Positions 5,785-14,639 of a DNA stretch of 32,111 nucleotides are shown in pieces; the stretch's first letter is position 1; every line of letters starts with the position of its first letter. The position numbers were made by a program, and so were the translations under genes. Source of the DNA: Caldisericum sp. (lineage in GTDB: Bacteria > Caldisericota > Caldisericia > Caldisericales > Caldisericaceae); contig JAEMPV010000062.1 in assembly GCA_022759145.1 (NCBI GenBank), positions 58,300 to 90,410 of the forward strand, given 5' to 3'. Under the pieces are notes generated by a model, which saw only the letters and a list, made by a program, of their open reading frames with translations, was not told where the DNA came from and searched no databases.

Positions 5785-6602
5785 TTTCTGAATTTTTTGT
5801 TTTTGGAGACGATTTTGATCATCTCGGTGACGGGACATTAAAAACAAGAGAAAGTCTTAATTCAATGCTCGATGAGTTCGACATTTATAGAAATAATCCT
5901 GCACATAAGAAAGAGAATCTTAGAAGAGTGGGTGTGTGCTCATACGAAGCAGAGTCAAATATTGTAATACATGCAAAGTTCGGAATAATAAAAACTTTTG
6001 CAAATAAAGAGAAGATAAAGACCATTGCAAAAGACATTGGACCAGGAATATCAAAACTCCTTCTTGCGTTAACTCCAGGCTACTCTACTGCTTCTGAAAA
6101 AGCAAGAAAGTTGGGATTTGGGGCAGGGATGGGATTAAAAAATATCCAGAAAATTTCAGATTTTTTTATCATAACCTCAAAATTCGGAAAAGGGACATAT
6201 CTTGCATTCGAGGTTTGGAATAGAGAAGTTTCCAAAGGGGAGGTAAAAATGAAGATTAGAGACCTCATAGATGAACTTAAATTAGAGGTACTTACAAGTT
6301 TTAATGAAAAACAACTCGATAAAATTATTGATAGCGCTTATGCAGGCGATCTTTTAAGTAGAGTCCTTGCTAAAGCAAATGAAGATAGTGCATGGATAAC
6401 AATTCAAACTAATGTAAATGTGGTAGGCGTAGCGGTAATAAAGAGGGTACCAATCATAATCGTAACAGAGGGAGAACCTATACCAGAAGAAACAATTAAA
6501 AAAGCGGAGGAAAACTCCGTTATAATAGCACGGACAATGCTTCCAACATTTGAATTATCTGGAAAACTCTATACTCTTCTTGAAAGAGAAAGGTCTAAAT
6601 AA
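5766..6602 (+). CDS. RsbW/RsbT-like anti-sigma kinase fused to a DRTGG domain
   Basis: A 278-residue two-domain protein. Residues 1-155 are an anti-sigma-type serine/threonine kinase ATPase: SYEAESNIVIHA (N box), KDIGPGISK (G1), then GYSTASEKARKLGFGAGMGL (G2) and KFGKGTYL. Residues 162-278 are a DRTGG domain with AGDLLSRVLA, IIIVTEGEPIPEETIKKAEE and SVIIARTML, paralogous to the preceding gene. The start is TTG 5766, supported by GGAAGGAG four bases upstream and overlapping the previous stop. Residue 162 is a Met with its own strong internal ribosome binding site (see 6234-6251), so a separate DRTGG product is possible. The likely role is phosphorylation or partner switching tied to the divergent NuoEF operon, which is inferred from context only. 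It ends in an 8-base overlap with the convergent gene. Confidence 0.82.
   Translation: MEDTILISEFFVFGDDFDHLGDGTLKTRESLNSMLDEFDIYRNNPAHKKENLRRVGVCSYEAESNIVIHAKFGIIKTFANKEKIKTIAKDIGPGISKLLLALTPGYSTASEKARKLGFGAGMGLKNIQKISDFFIITSKFGKGTYLAFEVWNREVSKGEVKMKIRDLIDELKLEVLTSFNEKQLDKIIDSAYAGDLLSRVLAKANEDSAWITIQTNVNVVGVAVIKRVPIIIVTEGEPIPEETIKKAEENSVIIARTMLPTFELSGKLYTLLERERSK
6234..6251 (+). promoter_or_regulatory. Internal Shine-Dalgarno and in-frame ATG
   Basis: AAAGGGGAGGT at 6234-6244 lies four bases before an in-frame ATG at 6249, exactly at the boundary between the kinase and DRTGG domains. It could start a separate 117-residue DRTGG protein in addition to the fused product. Confidence 0.6.
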
Positions 6603-9600
6603 CTTCTTCAACTGAATAGATTGTTATACCCTGGTAATTCTTTAATTTTGGATTATCATCAACAACTACATCTGTAAGTCTTAATTTCTTTGCAATTAGT
6701 ATTGCTTCACCTGTGGAAAACTTGCCTGATACTCTTTTTGCAATGTCTTCAGCAAGCCTCTCCTCGATAGTAGTAAGCCCTATAACTGTAATCCTATATC
6801 TACCTTCGACGATATCTGCAACTTCACTCTTTTGAGAAGCCGAAATACATGCTTTAGATAATAAGTCGCTCTTAAGAGATGTTGGAATATCCTCTTTTCC
6901 ATAAATTTTTCGTAGAGCGCCTGCATCTGCAACAAATTTAGATTTTAGTTCAACCTTTATAAATGTTTTCTCTTCTCCCGTAGAAACTTCACCTAAACTT
7001 TCTTCTTTTTTAACCTCCGCAGTCTCTTCGGGCTTTATTTCTTCTTTCTTTAATTCTTTTTTCTTTTTATTCTCCTCTTCGAGTTTCTTTATGAGTTCTT
7101 CAAAAGTTGATTTAAACTCTTCTTTTTTGCCCTTCTCTTCTTTAACTTCTTCCTTCTCTTCAGCTTTAGGTTCTGCTATTTTACTTATCTCTTCAGGGAT
7201 TTCTTCAAGATTAGGTTGTGCAAAATCAGCAAAGGACGGTTCGTGTTCTTCTAAAATCTCTTCCCTGGGCGCCTCCACTTTAGCTTCTGTCGGTTTTTCC
7301 TCTTTAGGTTGCTCAATAACCTGAGGTGTTGCTTCTTCCTTTTCAGCCGGTGCGATTGTTCCTTCGGACGTTATTAGTTCCTGGGTAGTTTTCTCTTGCG
7401 GAAGGACCTGCTCTTCCTGAATTGTTTTTTCTGGAACCTTCTCTTCAATCCTCACCCCTTCTTCTTTCCCTACGGGTTTTTCGACTTCCTCTACCTTCGA
7501 TTCCAGAACTTCCGGTTTTTCTTTAATTAATTTAACAGGCTCTTTTACTTCTTCTTTTATCTCCTTAAGTTGTTCTTCCTCTTTTTCTTTGGGTTGTTCT
7601 TTCTCAATGGTTAGTTTTTCGGTTCTTCTTGGAGGGACTGGTCTAAAGACTCTTCTTGTTTTCTCAATCTCTTCTTTTGGTGTTTCTTCAATAATTTGCT
7701 CGGGTGGTTTAATAGGTATAGTTTTTACTTTCGGAGGCTCACCTACGCCAAACTCTTCCCTTGCAGCTTCTACCTTTTCTTCCTTTACTTCAAGATCTTT
7801 AACATTAAATGCAATCGGCTTTTTCTTCACTTCTTCAACGCTTACAACAGGGATGTTCCTCTTTTTGCCTTTCGGAATGATGAGGATTATGACAATCAAA
7901 ACAAATAGGAAGAATATTATTGATGAAATCAAATCTACAGTTATATCTGGAATATAGTTTTTAACATATGGGTATATTTGTTCAGAAATCGGTCGTAAGA
8001 AACTGAGAATATTTGATGCAACACCTTTGAAGAATGTACTCAAGACACCTCCAATATTTTTTAAGTTGTCATTGGAAAGTATTCCTACAAAAAATGCAGA
8101 AACACTTTTAGAAATTTGGATAATGTAGTTTTTTACATTGTTAATCAAATTATTGAAATTATTACCTGTTGAAGGTTTCTCTGTGTTATTATTCTGAGAT
8201 TGCGTTGTCCCGCTTGCGTTGTTGTTACCACTTGCTACGACAACCTTTAAAGGATTGTAATTATCAACCGGCAAAAGTGTTGTAAAAATTTCTTTGTTAC
8301 CCTCGATACCAAGGTCAAAAACTGCAATCGGTTTATTTGAACTTATATTTACTGGAGAGAAACTTTCAGAAAATAGGAATGTTTTAGACTCAAAAGCATT
8401 TAAAGTAAAACTGTTTCCGTTTAAAGATACACTTGTAGATGGATCAATGCCGATTATAACAACTCTTCTTTTTCTTTCTCCGAATGTATTAGTAACCTTA
8501 CCTGTATGGAATTTAAAACTCGTGCCATTTGCAAATGACGGTATTTGTTCACCATCAACATTCCCAAATTGACCGTAAGTGTATATTAATACGGGCTTTG
8601 TAAATTCTACAAAAACCTGTTTGTATTCTGTTTCGTTGGGCTTATACTCATTTGAATTCAGAATATCAAAATACTTGAAATCATTTGCCTTTTCTAACTT
8701 TACGGTGCTACTTTTATCATTATATTTAACAGTAACCTCTGTATCATCAAAAATCGAAGACACCCCTAACCCACCAAAAGAGATAGCATTTGCCGAGTTT
8801 ATCCCATAAAGAGTTGAAAACACATTATCTTCTGCGTAACCAAATTCAATAAGAACAGGGGCACTTGATGTAACTGTATAAACTCCTTCCTGTAGCTTCG
8901 TATTACTGTAATATGAATTTGCTTTTAAAAGTGTTTCAGCAATTACACTTCCATCGCTTTTCACAATCTTAATGTTTGTGTCGGTAGTTGCTGTAATGAA
9001 AAGCGTTTGCGGAATGTAAAGCGTGAAATATGTTCCATAGACTGAGGACATATCATCAGACGAATTCTTTTCAAAAGGTGGTGTAAGTGTAGAAAGTTCG
9101 GCAAAAACGGGCAATGTTGATTTTAGTTCAAAAACTGAATCGTAAGTTAATTCAACAAATGTAAATTGAGATGTATCAAGATCTTTTTCGAAAATGGTCT
9201 TCGAGTTTTTGGTATCTACTACGGCTATATGGTTCCCATCGCCATAAGATACAATAAAAACTTTTCCTTTTTGAGGAATAATAAATTTGGTACCGATAAA
9301 GTTAGGCACATAGAAATCTTTTAGATTACCTCCAGCACCTTCATTAACAAGGGTTAAAGTTTTCTTTTCGTTAGGTGCAAGAGAAATTGCGGATTTAAAA
9401 ACAAATTTATCACCACTTTGAGAGAAAACAAGAGGAAGGGGAGTATCGCCATAAGTTAATTTAAAGTTTTGGAAGCCTTGCAAATTGCTTTTATCGACTT
9501 CAAATGTAAAAGATTTAAAGATAGGCACATTAAGTGTATTTTCAACATTAACAGTTACCCCATCCGCCCCAAATACACTGGGCGCCATTGTCAATAAAAT

Positions 9601-9636
9601 CAGTAAAGTCAAAAAACAAACCCAAAACTTTTTCAC
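6595..9636 (-). CDS. Large signal-peptide membrane protein with Glu/Lys-rich tail and PIN-like C-terminal domain
   Basis: 1013 residues. A signal peptide (1-23, ending SVFGA) is followed by about 440 residues of predicted beta-rich extracellular sequence that loosely recalls IgGFc-binding-type repeats, with GTYFTLYIPQTLFITATTDT and KPVLIYTYGQFG. Then come an Asn/Ser/Thr-rich linker (470-495), one membrane helix (568-588, stop-transfer KGKKR) and about 300 residues of Glu/Lys/Pro-rich, probably disordered or coiled tail. The final 115 residues look like a PIN-type domain: FVADAGAL (D904), STGEAILIAKKL (E977), VVVDDNPKL (D993, D994) and a final strand ITIYSVEEVI. The tail would be cytoplasmic. 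GTG 9636 is chosen because GGAAGGGG lies five bases upstream. It has its own probable promoter just after rnfB. No function can be named; a surface sensor or anchor coupled to a cytoplasmic RNA-binding or nuclease-like domain is a guess. Confidence 0.75.
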   Translation of the reverse strand: MKKFWVCFLTLLILLTMAPSVFGADGVTVNVENTLNVPIFKSFTFEVDKSNLQGFQNFKLTYGDTPLPLVFSQSGDKFVFKSAISLAPNEKKTLTLVNEGAGGNLKDFYVPNFIGTKFIIPQKGKVFIVSYGDGNHIAVVDTKNSKTIFEKDLDTSQFTFVELTYDSVFELKSTLPVFAELSTLTPPFEKNSSDDMSSVYGTYFTLYIPQTLFITATTDTNIKIVKSDGSVIAETLLKANSYYSNTKLQEGVYTVTSSAPVLIEFGYAEDNVFSTLYGINSANAISFGGLGVSSIFDDTEVTVKYNDKSSTVKLEKANDFKYFDILNSNEYKPNETEYKQVFVEFTKPVLIYTYGQFGNVDGEQIPSFANGTSFKFHTGKVTNTFGERKRRVVIIGIDPSTSVSLNGNSFTLNAFESKTFLFSESFSPVNISSNKPIAVFDLGIEGNKEIFTTLLPVDNYNPLKVVVASGNNNASGTTQSQNNNTEKPSTGNNFNNLINNVKNYIIQISKSVSAFFVGILSNDNLKNIGGVLSTFFKGVASNILSFLRPISEQIYPYVKNYIPDITVDLISSIIFFLFVLIVIILIIPKGKKRNIPVVSVEEVKKKPIAFNVKDLEVKEEKVEAAREEFGVGEPPKVKTIPIKPPEQIIEETPKEEIEKTRRVFRPVPPRRTEKLTIEKEQPKEKEEEQLKEIKEEVKEPVKLIKEKPEVLESKVEEVEKPVGKEEGVRIEEKVPEKTIQEEQVLPQEKTTQELITSEGTIAPAEKEEATPQVIEQPKEEKPTEAKVEAPREEILEEHEPSFADFAQPNLEEIPEEISKIAEPKAEEKEEVKEEKGKKEEFKSTFEELIKKLEEENKKKKELKKEEIKPEETAEVKKEESLGEVSTGEEKTFIKVELKSKFVADAGALRKIYGKEDIPTSLKSDLLSKACISASQKSEVADIVEGRYRITVIGLTTIEERLAEDIAKRVSGKFSTGEAILIAKKLRLTDVVVDDNPKLKNYQGITIYSVEEVI

Positions 9637-9652: not shown

Positions 9653-9680
9653 ATAATACAACTAAAACTTAAAATTTCAA
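9653..9680 (-). promoter_or_regulatory. Putative promoter of the 1013-residue membrane protein gene
   Basis: Minus-strand TTGAAA (9680-9675) and TATTAT (9658-9653) are 16 bases apart. The -35 box overlaps the rnfB stop codon. A short leader with GGAAGGGG follows before the GTG start. Confidence 0.5.
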
Positions 9681-9967
9681 GACTGCGATTTTGCCTCCTC
9701 CATAATTTTTCTTATTTTCTCTTCAACCTCTTTTCCACCAACAACACATGCATCATATGAAGCCCTTCCTTCAGCAATTGCTTCAGCGCAGGGATGACAC
9801 CCTGGAAAACCACATGCACCGCACTCTCCATGTGGAAGCACTTCATAGATTGCCTGTGCTAAAGGACTTTCCTCAACTTTAAATTTCTCATTAAAAACAC
9901 CCAAAAGCACGCCAAATAACGCTCCAAGGATTCCGAGAGTAAAAACAGAGATTAAAATATCTTTCAT
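9677..9967 (-). CDS. rnfB: RnfB, minimal form without ferredoxin domains
   Basis: The 96 residues correspond to only the N-terminal part of RnfB: a membrane anchor (about 5-24) and the conserved [4Fe-4S] domain with C49, C52, C57 and C74 (GECGACGFPGC; ASYDACVVGGKEV). Typical RnfB is about 270-330 residues or longer and continues into two or more ferredoxin-type clusters that accept electrons from ferredoxin. Here the chain ends in a short charged helix and a stop. Only about 40 bases separate it from the next gene, so no displaced remainder follows. It is the last gene of rnfCDGEAB, 9 bases after rnfA. Either this is the true minimal subunit and a separate ferredoxin or RnfC takes over the missing step, or the gene is truncated. 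The identification is firm; activity is uncertain. Confidence 0.9.
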   Translation of the reverse strand: MKDILISVFTLGILGALFGVLLGVFNEKFKVEESPLAQAIYEVLPHGECGACGFPGCHPCAEAIAEGRASYDACVVGGKEVEEKIRKIMEEAKSQS

Positions 9968-9976
9968 ATGCCGCTC

Positions 9977-10567
9977 CTATTTAATCATTCCACTAAATCC
10001 AAGGAAAGCAAGAGAAAGAATACCAGATATCATAAAGGCTATTGCCTTCCCTTTGAAAAATTCGGGAACATCGGAGTTTCTTAATCTTTCCCTAATGCCT
10101 GCAAGAAGAAGCATTGCAATTGCATAGCCAAAGGAAATTCCAAATCCTGAAACAATCGATTCTACAAAATCGTAATGGTTCATTGAATTAATAAATGTTA
10201 CTCCAAGTATAAGACAGTTTGTTGCAATCAAGGGAAGATAAATACCCATTGCCTTGTAAAGATTTGGGGATGCCTTTTTGATATACATTTCAACAAGACC
10301 TACAAAAGAACCAATAACGAGAATGAATGCAGTGATTTGAAGGGCAGATTGAAGTCCTGTTGGTATAAGAATCCAGTTGTCAATCATCCAGGCAAGAATC
10401 GAGGATGAAACAGTAACAAAAATAACTGCAAAACTCATACCAATGGAATTTGGCAAACTGTCAGTAAGACCGATATAAGAGCAAAGTCCCAAAAACTGAA
10501 TAAGAATAATATTATTTATAACTGCAGAAGATACAAAAATCTTAAGAAGATTCTCAATATAACTCAT
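9977..10567 (-). CDS. rnfA: RnfA, membrane subunit of Rnf complex
   Basis: The 196 residues contain about six membrane helices and typical RnfA motifs: NNIILIQFLGLCSYIG near the start, IYLPLIATNCLILG in the middle and a final helix. Cys29 and Cys118 correspond to the cysteines that, with two from RnfE, hold the intramembrane iron-sulfur centre in Rnf/NQR complexes. RnfA and RnfE form an inverted pair across the membrane and pass electrons between the ferredoxin side and the flavins on the other face. The length is normal for the family. The start overlaps the rnfE stop by 4 bases, so the two are translationally coupled. Confidence 0.95.
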   Translation of the reverse strand: MSYIENLLKIFVSSAVINNIILIQFLGLCSYIGLTDSLPNSIGMSFAVIFVTVSSSILAWMIDNWILIPTGLQSALQITAFILVIGSFVGLVEMYIKKASPNLYKAMGIYLPLIATNCLILGVTFINSMNHYDFVESIVSGFGISFGYAIAMLLLAGIRERLRNSDVPEFFKGKAIAFMISGILSLAFLGFSGMIK

Positions 10568-11169
10568 TTTTTACCTCCCTTTTTCCTGAGGTAGGTTTCA
10601 ATTGCACCTGTAAGGATACCAATCATAATAAAGCCTGAAGGCGGAAGCACCATAAGAAGCATCGGTTGGTATGAGTCGGGAAGAATTTGAATACCTGCAA
10701 GAGCACCTTTTCCAATAAGTTCTCTTACAACGGCAATTGTTAAAAGAACAAGCCCATAGCCAATTGTGTTGCCTACACCATCCAAAAATGAATCAAAAAT
10801 CCCATTTTGATAGGCAAACGCCTCTGCTCTACCTATAATAATGCAGTTTACCACAACAAGAAGGATATAAAGTTTTATTATCTGGTAAACGGCATTGAAG
10901 TATGCTTGAGAAATAAGTGCTGCTATAGTCGTAAATGCAGCGATAACCGTAACAAATATAGGAACTCTTATTTCGTTAGGAATTATTTTTCTCATCGCAG
11001 AAACAATTATGTTTGATGGTATCTGAACCATTGCAAATGCAAAAGTCATAAGAAGCGCACTTTGAACAGAATTAGAAACAGCAATAGTAGAGCATAAGCC
11101 AATCGAAATTATCAAAACAGGGTTATTTGGTATGATTGCATTCCAAATTATATCAAGTTTCTTTTTCAT
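10564..11169 (-). CDS. rnfE: RnfE, membrane subunit of Rnf complex
   Basis: 201 residues of full family length with about six membrane helices. NNPVLIISIGLCSTIAVS (Cys26) and LLVVVNCIIIGRAEAFA (Cys109) are the conserved segments that contribute cluster cysteines opposite RnfA. The C-terminal stretch MVLPPSGFIMIG is also typical. It belongs to the ion-pumping ferredoxin:NAD oxidoreductase in the cytoplasmic membrane. It overlaps rnfG upstream and rnfA downstream by 4 bases each. Confidence 0.95.
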   Translation of the reverse strand: MKKKLDIIWNAIIPNNPVLIISIGLCSTIAVSNSVQSALLMTFAFAMVQIPSNIIVSAMRKIIPNEIRVPIFVTVIAAFTTIAALISQAYFNAVYQIIKLYILLVVVNCIIIGRAEAFAYQNGIFDSFLDGVGNTIGYGLVLLTIAVVRELIGKGALAGIQILPDSYQPMLLMVLPPSGFIMIGILTGAIETYLRKKGGKK

Positions 11170-11765
11170 TGCCCTGCCTCCTTAAGATAAGAGACAATTG
11201 CCTGACCTGCAACTTTTACACCAGTCGATACTGCACGAGAAGTTATAGTTGCACCACTCATTGCAATAATATCCTCTTTAGGTATAAGTTTGTCTTTCTC
11301 AACATTTTTCCCTATAAACTGACCCAGAAAAGTTATTTTGTTCTTCTTATCAACATAATATTTAGGATTATCAGCATTCGCACCAAGTCCTGCAGTTTCG
11401 TTCAACTTAAGAATCTTAACTCCTGAAACAGTTCCATCACTTTTAATACCTACAAGCATCTCGATAGGTGCTTGAGAACCAGGAACTACAACTCTTGCAA
11501 CCATTCCAACGTTTTTCTGAGTTGACTTATCCTTTACAAGATAAGACTCAGTTATTTGAACAGATGGGTCTCCGGAGCTAATAGGTTTATCCAATTTTAC
11601 AAACTCATAATCGCCAGGAAAAATTTCAGAAAGTCCCTGTTGAAGAGCCTTTAGGTCCTGTGCTTCAATAATAGGTTTAGTTATCTGATAAACAATAGCA
11701 AGTGCAAAACCAGTAATAGCAGCAATAAGCCCCAAAGTTATAGCAAACTTAACAACACTTTTCAT
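11166..11765 (-). CDS. rnfG: RnfG, covalent-FMN subunit of Rnf complex
   Basis: 199 residues. One N-terminal membrane helix (about 5-27) precedes an FMN-binding domain exposed outside the cytoplasm. The flavinylation motif is SGAT at 170-173 (followed by ITS), where Thr173 would be linked to FMN by the ApbE flavin transferase; apbE itself is not in this window. GVKILKLNETAGLGANA is the other conserved stretch. Length and order in the operon are normal, with 4-base overlaps on both sides. Confidence 0.94.
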   Translation of the reverse strand: MKSVVKFAITLGLIAAITGFALAIVYQITKPIIEAQDLKALQQGLSEIFPGDYEFVKLDKPISSGDPSVQITESYLVKDKSTQKNVGMVARVVVPGSQAPIEMLVGIKSDGTVSGVKILKLNETAGLGANADNPKYYVDKKNKITFLGQFIGKNVEKDKLIPKEDIIAMSGATITSRAVSTGVKVAGQAIVSYLKEAGQ

Positions 11766-12751
11766 TTTGCCACCTCTTTTTTAGGGAAAACACCATAAAC
11801 CCTTGGCATAATCTTATCAAAATAAGGAACAACTGCGTTTCCTAAAAGAATTGAAAACATAACACCTTCTGGGTATGAACCAAACTGTCTTATCAATACA
11901 GTAAGGAAACCAATAAAGATTGCATAGTAAACTTTTCCAAGTGGAGTGATTGGTGAAGAACTGTAATCAGTTGCCATAAAGAAGGCACCGAGGAAAAGCC
12001 CACCTGCAAGAATCGAAAATAGCGGATCCCTTCCAAAAAGAGGAGAAAGAACAAATACAGTTGCAATATAAATCACTGGTATCTTCCAGTCGATAACTTT
12101 CCTTGCAATAAGATATATGCCGCCTATCAAGAGAAGTAGAGCGGAAGTCTCACCTAAACTACCTCCTATCGTGCCAAGGAAAAGTGCCTTGTAAAGATTT
12201 GCCTTTGTCCCAAACTCTGAAAGTAATTGTGCATATCCTTGTAACTTGACAACATTTAAGGGTGTTGCAGTGGTAATTACATCGAGTGGCTGATTAAAGG
12301 CTGAAAAGGGCTTCACCCAGGTAGTCATTTGGGTTGGCCAGGAAACCATTAAAACCGCTCTCCCCACAAGAGCAGGGTTAAATGGATTCGACCCAATGCC
12401 ACCAAAAATCATCTTTCCTAAAAGGATCCCAGAAAATGCACCGATAACAACCATCCACCATGGAGATGATGGAGGCAAGGTCATCGCAAGAAGAAGCCCC
12501 GTAACCGATGCGGAAAGGTCGTTTAAAGATGGCTTTTTATGGAAAAGTAAGTTTCCAACAACTTCAGCAAGTACTGATGATACAACAGAAACTAAAACTA
12601 CAATCAATGCCCTTATACCGAATATAAAAATACTTCCAATAAGAGCAGGGGTAAGTGCGATTATCACATCTCTCATTATGGAGGTGGTTGTAACTTTGTC
12701 TCTTATGTGTGGCGCTGATGTAACAACAAGGTCTATATCGTAATTAGCCAT
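11762..12751 (-). CDS. rnfD: RnfD, membrane flavin subunit of Rnf complex
   Basis: 329 residues with many membrane helices. Family motifs include SAPHIRDKVTTTSIMRDV at the start, DLSASVTGLLLAMTLPP, and FGGIGSNPFNPALVGRA. The covalent FMN site is DVITTATPL (157-165), with Thr163 the probable acceptor. RnfD forms the main membrane channel of the ion-pumping complex together with A and E. The gene overlaps rnfC by 8 bases and rnfG by 4. Length is normal and no motif is damaged. Confidence 0.95.
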   Translation of the reverse strand: MANYDIDLVVTSAPHIRDKVTTTSIMRDVIIALTPALIGSIFIFGIRALIVVLVSVVSSVLAEVVGNLLFHKKPSLNDLSASVTGLLLAMTLPPSSPWWMVVIGAFSGILLGKMIFGGIGSNPFNPALVGRAVLMVSWPTQMTTWVKPFSAFNQPLDVITTATPLNVVKLQGYAQLLSEFGTKANLYKALFLGTIGGSLGETSALLLLIGGIYLIARKVIDWKIPVIYIATVFVLSPLFGRDPLFSILAGGLFLGAFFMATDYSSSPITPLGKVYYAIFIGFLTVLIRQFGSYPEGVMFSILLGNAVVPYFDKIMPRVYGVFPKKEVAK

Positions 12752-14156
12752 TTTTTACCTCCTTTTGGGAGTTCTCTTTTTCTTTCATTCTCTGTGCCTT
12801 TAACTTTTCAAAGGCTGCCTGTTTTGCTGCTTCAATCTTTCTTTGCTTTATAATTGCCTGCTTTACCTTCTTTATGTTCTCTGTTAAATGCCTCTTTGCT
12901 GGACATACATAAGAGCATACACCACATTCGATACAGTCAAGAGCATGAAGTGATTCTGCAGTTTTGAGGTCGTTCTTTCTTGAGGCATGATCAATGAGAA
13001 CTGGCATAAGTCCCATAGGACAAGAGTCAACACAACTTGCACACCTAATGCAGGGTGATTCTTCTTCCGGTGCCATTTCAAGGGCTTCATCACCAAACAT
13101 AAGAATGCCGGAAGTTCCCTTAAGAACCGGCACATCAACTGTTGACTGGGCAATTCCTGTCATAGGACCACCAAATATGAGTTTTCTTAATTTTCTATTA
13201 AGTCCAAGCGTTTCTATGATAAATGAAGCAGGAGTTCCAATCCTGATAATGTAGTTTCCTGGCTTTGAAACTGCATTTCCTGAAACCGTAACGCCTCTTT
13301 CAATAAGAGGTTTGTCCTCGAGCACTGCCTCGGTAATTGCTTTGAGTGTCCCAACATTTTGGACAACCACTCCAACATCAAGAGGCAAACCACCTGAAGG
13401 AACCTCTCTTCCAAGGACAGCCTTGATGAGTTGTTTTTCTCCTCCCTGAGGATACTTGGTTTTTACAAGGACAACCTCAACATCTTTTACCCCTAACTCA
13501 TTTATCTTATTTTGAAGCACATTTGCTGCATCGATTTTGTTCTCTTCGACTGCAATAATACCCTTCTTTGCACCGGTTATCTTCATCTCAATGAGAATTC
13601 CTTTTATTATCTTCTCAGGGTATTCAAGCATATTTCTGTGGTCAACAGTAAGGTATGGTTCGCATTCAGCACCATTTCCAATGATTGTATCAATAACCTT
13701 TCCCTTTGGAGGAGTTAGTTTTACAGCAGTTGGAAATGCCGCACCACCTAAACCGACTATACCTTTTTCTCTAATAATTTTTACAAGTTCCTCACCCGAA
13801 AGATCCTCAAAAGATGATCTTGGGGTAAGTTCAACCCAGTCGTCTTTGTAATCGTTTTCAATTACAACACTTTGAACTTTTGCACCAGTTGGGCACAATC
13901 TCTCTTCAATTGCAATTACTTTTCCAGAAACGGTTGCATGCACAGGCGCAGAAACAACTTGTGTAGAATCCCCAATCTTTTGTCCAACCTTTACATAGTC
14001 ACCCACTTTTACTGTTGGAGTATTGGGTGCACCTGTGTGTTGCTGGAGCGGAATAACTGCAATTGGAGGAGCATTAAAAACTTCAAAAGGCAGATCTTTT
14101 GTTAGTTTACTCTCATCCGGATGAACGCCACCGGGTGAATAAGTAAATACTTTCAT
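12744..14156 (-). CDS. rnfC: RnfC, NADH-side iron-sulfur flavoprotein of Rnf complex
   Basis: 470 residues. Order of domains: N-terminal barrel-sandwich domain; a NuoF-like Rossmann core with GIVGLGGAAFPTAVKL and NGAECEPYLTVDHRNML; an SLBB domain; and two [4Fe-4S] sites with C369, C372, C375, C379 and C408, C411, C414, C418. It exchanges electrons with NAD at the cytoplasmic face of the Rnf complex. The C-terminus is a short Lys/Gln-rich tail, without the long repeats of some proteobacterial RnfC. It is the first of the rnf genes and starts 3 bases after the zinc-ribbon gene, so the two are probably one transcript. Confidence 0.95.
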   Translation of the reverse strand: MKVFTYSPGGVHPDESKLTKDLPFEVFNAPPIAVIPLQQHTGAPNTPTVKVGDYVKVGQKIGDSTQVVSAPVHATVSGKVIAIEERLCPTGAKVQSVVIENDYKDDWVELTPRSSFEDLSGEELVKIIREKGIVGLGGAAFPTAVKLTPPKGKVIDTIIGNGAECEPYLTVDHRNMLEYPEKIIKGILIEMKITGAKKGIIAVEENKIDAANVLQNKINELGVKDVEVVLVKTKYPQGGEKQLIKAVLGREVPSGGLPLDVGVVVQNVGTLKAITEAVLEDKPLIERGVTVSGNAVSKPGNYIIRIGTPASFIIETLGLNRKLRKLIFGGPMTGIAQSTVDVPVLKGTSGILMFGDEALEMAPEEESPCIRCASCVDSCPMGLMPVLIDHASRKNDLKTAESLHALDCIECGVCSYVCPAKRHLTENIKKVKQAIIKQRKIEAAKQAAFEKLKAQRMKEKENSQKEVKNG

Positions 14157-14159
14157 ATT

Positions 14160-14639
14160 TCACTCCTTTCGTTCTTCAAAGATAAAGCCACAGTAAGGAC
14201 AAATTTTTGCATCCTTCTCTACGATTGCTCCACATTGTGGACACTTCTTCTTTAACTGAGTAAAACAGTGCGGACAGAACAAATAGTCACTTCTCACTTC
14301 TTCACCACAAACTGGACATTTGTACAACTCTTTCTCGATCTGTATTTTGTAGTATTTCTTCTGAAGTTCTAACACCTCCTTCCTTTCTTTTTCCTCGTTT
14401 AATTCTTCGAGTGTATAAGGACTCCTTACCATAAGGTAAAATACAAGAGGCAGGATTCCACCAAGCAGGATTGTTGCAATTAACCAGCCTTTAGCGTTAC
14501 CTCCTCTTAGCCTGCTGTCGTTATACACATAAATCGCAATGGTTACAATTAGTGCTAAAAGCGAAAGAATAATGATTAAGATATCTGCCGTTGAAAAATT
14601 AGGTAAAACTGTTTTAATTACTTCAATAATTTTTTCCAT
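14160..14639 (-). CDS. Membrane protein with double zinc ribbon, leading the rnf genes
   Basis: 159 residues. Two membrane helices (about 20-38 and 52-70) are followed by a charged helix (78-104) and two zinc ribbons of the DZANK type: C108, C111, C122, C125 and C133, C136, C147, C150. The zinc ribbons would face the cytoplasm if the short loop NDSRLRGG is inside. I do not recognise a specific family. It sits 3 bases before rnfC and 15 bases after folC, with a TATAAT box eight bases before its ATG, so it may head the rnf transcript. AAGGA touches the ATG directly, too close for a normal ribosome binding site. A role in Rnf assembly is only a guess from position. Confidence 0.8.
   Translation of the reverse strand: MEKIIEVIKTVLPNFSTADILIIILSLLALIVTIAIYVYNDSRLRGGNAKGWLIATILLGGILPLVFYLMVRSPYTLEELNEEKERKEVLELQKKYYKIQIEKELYKCPVCGEEVRSDYLFCPHCFTQLKKKCPQCGAIVEKDAKICPYCGFIFEERKE

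Follow-up and report, generated by a model that had tools for sequence, protein, structure and literature searches.

The window analysed here, a stretch of 32,111 nucleotides from a Caldisericum sp. genome (G000; 1.62 Mb, 99.2% complete), encodes six Rnf subunits together, in the operon order rnfCDGEAB. The genes and features on which the analysis turns are the following:

14160..14639, minus strand: 159-aa membrane/zinc-ribbon protein, directly upstream of rnfC
12744..14156, minus strand: rnfC, 470 aa, with a Complex1_51K domain and two 4Fe-4S motifs (CxxCxxCxxxC sets)
12747..12836, minus strand: family-specific C-terminal extension of RnfC, residues 441-470, with an invariant AAFEK
11762..12751, minus strand: rnfD, 329 aa, with a TTATPL flavinylation-type motif
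11166..11765, minus strand: rnfG, 199 aa, with an SGATIT flavinylation motif
10564..11169, minus strand: rnfE, 201 aa, Cys26 and Cys109 kept
9977..10567, minus strand: rnfA, 196 aa, Cys29 and Cys118 kept
9677..9967, minus strand: rnfB, minimal form, 96 aa, with an ATG start and the stop at 9677-9679
9884..9964, minus strand: N-terminal transmembrane helix of RnfB, residues 2-28 (AlphaFold2 helix 2-28; hydropathy peak 2.6)
9788..9790, minus strand: codon of Cys60, the family-specific fifth cysteine of RnfB
9743..9838, minus strand: one-cluster FeS domain of RnfB, residues 44-75 (PF04060), equivalent to FdI/B8
9683..9736, minus strand: C-terminal helix of RnfB, residues 78-95 (AlphaFold2 model), with the protein end just after
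6595..9636, minus strand: large membrane protein with a C-terminal PIN-like domain, a conserved neighbour of rnfB

The SGATIT sequence of RnfG and the TTATPL sequence of RnfD are what we take to be flavinylation motifs. With these, the two 4Fe-4S motifs of RnfC and the membrane cysteines of RnfA and RnfE all in place, the first-pass annotation was right that the other Rnf subunits are intact. The membrane [2Fe-2S] cysteines, Cys29/118 of RnfA and Cys26/109 of RnfE, have as their Acetobacterium woodii counterparts Cys25/113 and Cys25/108, as described for that complex (PMC11889175).

The window RnfB, with a predicted mass of 10.25 kDa, combines one transmembrane helix with one iron-sulfur domain of the pattern CxxC(x4)C(x16)C. 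PF04060 (Pfam FeS) is its only Pfam domain (residues 44-75, E 1.4e-10). Residues 2-92 align to positions 2-91 of the 190 in the NCBIfam rnfB model TIGR01944, scoring 82.7 bits against a cutoff of 68.7 despite the missing second half. No ferredoxin-type cluster lies downstream of the FeS domain, where the long form of RnfB carries C-terminal ferredoxin domains; the protein stops at residue 96, before the next gene. This is the minimal form of the subunit, of about 10.5 kDa, with an anchor and a single predicted 4Fe-4S site; the first pass had likewise described RnfB as reduced to its anchor and first cluster.

An AlphaFold2 model based on 15 sequences of the family (moderate confidence, mean pLDDT 78.6) predicts a long N-terminal helix followed by a small cysteine domain with a terminal helix. 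The best PDB match of the model is A. woodii RnfB (9eri_B, E 1.7e-3), and it also matches the one-cluster domain of a corrinoid/iron-sulfur protein (E 0.03-0.1); we regard the support of these matches for the predicted fold as suggestive rather than strong. By sequence, the RnfBs of A. woodii (9eri_B), Clostridium tetanomorphum (7zc6_B) and A. vinelandii (8ahx_B) align over most of the window RnfB. The anchor and the FdI/B8 domain are what they have in common with it, whereas their polyferredoxin C-terminal domain is lacking in the window protein. The RnfC match of the long-RnfB complexes runs over nearly the whole of the window RnfC.

It should be noted that a truncated gene of this kind could have arisen through a frameshift at 9677, a misassembly or the decay of a pseudogene. 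We consider this exceedingly improbable. The gene is present in all 18 genomes of the family Caldisericaceae, which span nine genera; one copy is cut by a contig end, and the other 17 are complete at 95-103 aa, including that of G009, a genome assembled as a single contig. Substitutions point the same way, with dN far below dS (0.10 and 1.46 between the window gene and that of L043; 0.014 and 0.239 between L044 and L045, six of the ten pairs compared being saturated at synonymous sites), and they indicate that rnfB is under purifying selection in the family. Moreover, only 40 bp separate the stop from the next conserved gene. We found no evidence for a frameshift, misassembly or pseudogene, and the short frame in 17 of 17 complete genes argues that the short rnfB is real and inherited rather than an error. 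Nor does a second or full-length rnfB make up for it: PF04060 matches once only in the 99.2% complete genome of the window, and a family RnfB profile matches once each in G000 and G009. Both objections that could have overturned the first reading thus fail.

The comparison of lengths among relatives suggested at first pass shows a long RnfB in the sister families. In 20 genomes of families f2, f3 and f6, the open frame that contains the rnfB-like match is 273-299 aa long; weak matches in f5 and f7, which cover only part of the FeS domain, were excluded from the RnfB count. The ten sister-family RnfBs that were read (of 20) all have 24-26 cysteines and, in addition to the FeS domain, three CxxCxxCxxxC sets; all ten genes lie in an rnf cluster with the operon order of the window. 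The frame lengths suggest that the C-terminal polyferredoxin part of RnfB was probably lost on the Caldisericaceae branch. In a tree of RnfA, RnfE and RnfD from 37 loci, Caldisericaceae form one clade (UFBoot 100), and the nearest full-length group is supported at UFBoot 40-56 only. Three of the ten sister loci (L071, L074 and L077) and eight of 20 loci from a second phylum (L126, L127, L128, L131, L135, L139, L140 and L144) are outside this tree, a subunit having not been called at E<1e-15.

The second phylum was reached through locus L041, the exception among ten loci from a contig scan for relatives that were otherwise all of Caldisericum/Caldiserica type; a scan of viral contigs gave no match, and a plasmid scan gave 14 records. 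The survey of short RnfBs thus covers two phyla. In the second, that of genome G054, an RnfB match is present in 75 of 100 sampled genomes, and at nine of 77 places the frame is 99-146 aa long, or 95-131 aa when trimmed to start codons. Like the window RnfB, these nine proteins consist of an anchor and one FeS domain; unlike it, they lack the fifth cysteine. At L126, L129, L130 and L133 the short gene adjoins rnfA, and the RnfC of the operon has two clusters. In the tree, L125, L129, L130 and L132 group with long-RnfB complexes of their own phylum and not with Caldisericaceae, which argues that at least one further phylum acquired a short RnfB independently. L133 falls with L143 and f3.

The remaining short-RnfB loci of this phylum differ in their surroundings. 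At L125 and L132 the gene lies beside RnfA/E/D/G-like genes, ApbE and a 64-67-aa four-cysteine protein, and the part of the locus that was read has no RnfC; these loci perhaps represent an Rnf/Nqr hybrid. L131 runs into the end of its contig, and at L127 and L128 other rnf genes were not called within about 12 kb.

The minimal form of RnfB has a published precedent. Thermotoga maritima RnfB is described as a 10.56-kDa protein with one predicted cluster (Kuhns et al. 2020, PMC7414866), and a structural study states that it consists of FdI only (Vitt et al. 2022, PMC9588780). According to the former account, both the T. maritima membranes and the enriched enzyme use C. pasteurianum ferredoxin to reduce NAD+, and the complex transports Na+; the mass spectrometry reported there identified three of the six subunits (C, D and G), RnfB not being among them (PMC7414866). 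Likened by its published description, the T. maritima Rnf resembles that of the window in its rnfCDGEAB order, its one-site RnfB (10.56 and 10.25 kDa) and its thermophile lineage. It differs in that its ferredoxin activity was shown experimentally, while that of the Caldisericum Rnf is predicted. Structurally characterised RnfBs are said in a review to carry two to seven clusters in the C-terminal domain (PMC12174285). In C. tetanomorphum the mobile FdI domain is regarded as the shuttle that links the polyferredoxin part to RnfA/E (PMC9588780), and in A. woodii mutation of the B8 cluster is reported to abolish activity, making B8 essential (PMC11889175). Taken together, the T. maritima, FdI and B8 findings make a direct handover from ferredoxin to the one-cluster domain the simplest mechanism.

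In our opinion, the window RnfB is likely to be a minimal but complete subunit of an ion-coupled ferredoxin/NAD+ Rnf, in which soluble ferredoxin docks directly on the one-cluster domain. Alongside the published work stand the observations made here: an intact gene, its conservation and selection, the intact motifs of its partners and the presence of a one-cluster ferredoxin. RnfB is cut down to its membrane anchor and the mobile one-cluster domain, the FdI of C. tetanomorphum and B8 of A. woodii. Reduced soluble ferredoxin, for which a 66-aa one-cluster protein is the probable candidate, would dock on this FeS domain, which would then swing to the [2Fe-2S] site of RnfA/E; the electron would go on to reach NAD+ by way of RnfG, RnfD and RnfC. 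The polyferredoxin part would be a docking arm and wire, lost in Caldisericaceae and missing too in T. maritima. For the Caldisericum complex, we infer the occupancy of the cluster, the docking, the direction and the ion. Of the two possibilities raised at first pass, a minimal Rnf with an external ferredoxin is thus the better supported, by the T. maritima precedent, and nothing found favours the other, a different donor.

A candidate ferredoxin is encoded in the family. One-cluster ferredoxins, in frames of 64-73 aa, occur in 16 of the 18 family genomes, the two without being 55-56% complete. In the window genome the ferredoxin frame (66 aa; C50:35772-35972) precedes, by about 50 bp, genes that we read from their sequence as putative pyruvate:ferredoxin oxidoreductase subunits. 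The separate ferredoxin with Rnf linkage envisaged earlier was not found next to rnf; what the genome offers is this ordinary one-cluster protein elsewhere. Its distribution does not track RnfB length. A one-cluster ferredoxin is also present in 13 of the 15 genomes of f3, where any RnfB found is of the long kind, and none was found in five f2 and five f6 genomes; in the second phylum, it occurs in five of nine short-RnfB genomes and in many with a long RnfB. The notion that such a ferredoxin goes with short RnfB is therefore not supported.

Loss of the usual ferredoxin-docking domain might also mean that the complex takes electrons from another donor, for example a flavodoxin-like or specialised Fe-S protein. 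The invariance of Cys60, which like His46 is missing from the ten sister-family RnfBs, could be read in this sense. Yet the T. maritima complex works with a clostridial ferredoxin (PMC7414866), and flavodoxin (PF00258) is too patchy to be an obvious family-wide donor, being matched in 11 of 18 family genomes, six of them above the cutoff. The only partners joined to the operon, the PIN-like and zinc-ribbon proteins, are found with full-length RnfB as well. We consider a different donor unlikely. Alternatively, the complex might be split rather than minimal, with a separate Fe-S protein, dedicated to this role and bound to RnfB or RnfC, providing the polyferredoxin module in trans. The family genomes do encode many ferredoxin-type proteins, and the RnfC extension might bind something. 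However, a 179-position profile of the missing part gave only partial matches, mostly to larger or operon-bound proteins; none resembles the whole missing part, and the surroundings of rnf in the 17 family loci read contain none of them. Such a module thus appears very unlikely.

A further reading, unlikely in our judgment, is that the electron-input head of the complex was rebuilt: the polyferredoxin arm was dropped, a fifth cysteine common to soluble FeS/DUF5320 proteins of the family was gained through domain exchange or common descent, and a C-terminal helix of RnfC compensates. Cys60, three residues past the third ligand, is present in all 17 complete family RnfBs and in none of 30 others (ten from sister families, 20 from the second phylum), and eight of nine other FeS-domain proteins of the family genomes have it. 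The family RnfB FeS domain groups with these proteins (support 0.966, on 57 columns only). The RnfC extension, about 25-40 residues long and containing AAFEK, is found in 15 of 15 family RnfCs and 0 of 9 sister RnfCs, and A. woodii RnfC is described as contacting RnfB through a short C-terminal helix (PMC11889175). Nevertheless, A. vinelandii RnfC also continues past the point where the family extension starts, and the second-phylum complexes L126, L129 and L130 combine a short RnfB with an RnfC lacking the extension. A need of short RnfB for the extension is therefore not supported, and compensation by it stays speculation. If the head was indeed rebuilt, it would be a one-cluster head with altered potential or donor, and a natural minimal model of a donor docking directly on the shuttle domain. 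The invariant fifth cysteine and the family-specific RnfC extension are details that may be new.

Minimal, direct docking on the one-cluster domain, which we prefer, leaves the accepted Rnf mechanism unchanged. What is new here is that a one-cluster RnfB is fixed through Caldisericaceae, the kind itself being already known from T. maritima; in open-access full-text searches, the titles and abstract openings of the papers retrieved gave no report of short RnfB in Caldisericaceae, and a search for RnfB of Treponema or Spirochaeta found no paper. The one-cluster RnfB is thus no oddity of T. maritima but a fixed trait of an entire family in another thermophilic lineage. Minimal complexes bear on the role of the variable RnfB polyferredoxin domain, which in T. 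maritima is evidently dispensable for ferredoxin oxidation and Na+ transport. They would also offer small, possibly stable complexes for structural work on the shuttle domain.

Other PF04060 proteins of the family genomes were considered as RnfB candidates and rejected, since none aligns to the anchor; the two that were scanned both carry DUF5320, one with a FUR domain also. Loci L059 and L061-L067 encode soluble proteins whose FeS domain has the same fifth cysteine and whose N-termini are rich in glycine and arginine; some of them are fused to a FUR-like domain. Neighbours of L061 belong to the FUR, DUF5320, Nitro_FeMo-Co and radical SAM families.

The gene that follows rnfB was called close and unrelated at first pass. 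The first of these terms holds, at 40 bp; the second does not, the gene being a phylum-wide syntenic partner that also stands beside full-length RnfB, as does the zinc-ribbon gene. It lies directly after rnfB in the window and in all 16 family loci that reach that far, and is recognised in nine of ten sister-family loci, with another ORF between it and rnfB in those of f3. The 1013-aa product has an N-terminal hydrophobic segment, a strong hydrophobic segment near residue 569, a charged linker and a C-terminal domain for which a PIN-like fold is predicted (pLDDT 89.4; PAE2754 and VapC-type PIN proteins lead its PDB matches, the lowest E value being 9.9e-4); the whole protein has no Pfam or NCBIfam match. 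This putative membrane-anchored PIN-like neighbour is a conserved detail that may be new. On the other side of the operon, an ORF sized like the 159-aa zinc-ribbon protein occupies the same position in most loci read.

The vicinity of the rnf operon also contains NuoE/NuoF-like genes and one for the alpha subunit of a formate dehydrogenase, which would fit a ferredoxin/NADH hub. Elsewhere in the genome (G000:C126, locus L113), Complex-I-like genes (NuoD and its neighbours) lie beside the gene for a 610-aa protein in which ferredoxin and NAD(P)H-oxidoreductase-type domains are fused; the locus is a candidate for a second ferredoxin-dependent membrane complex.
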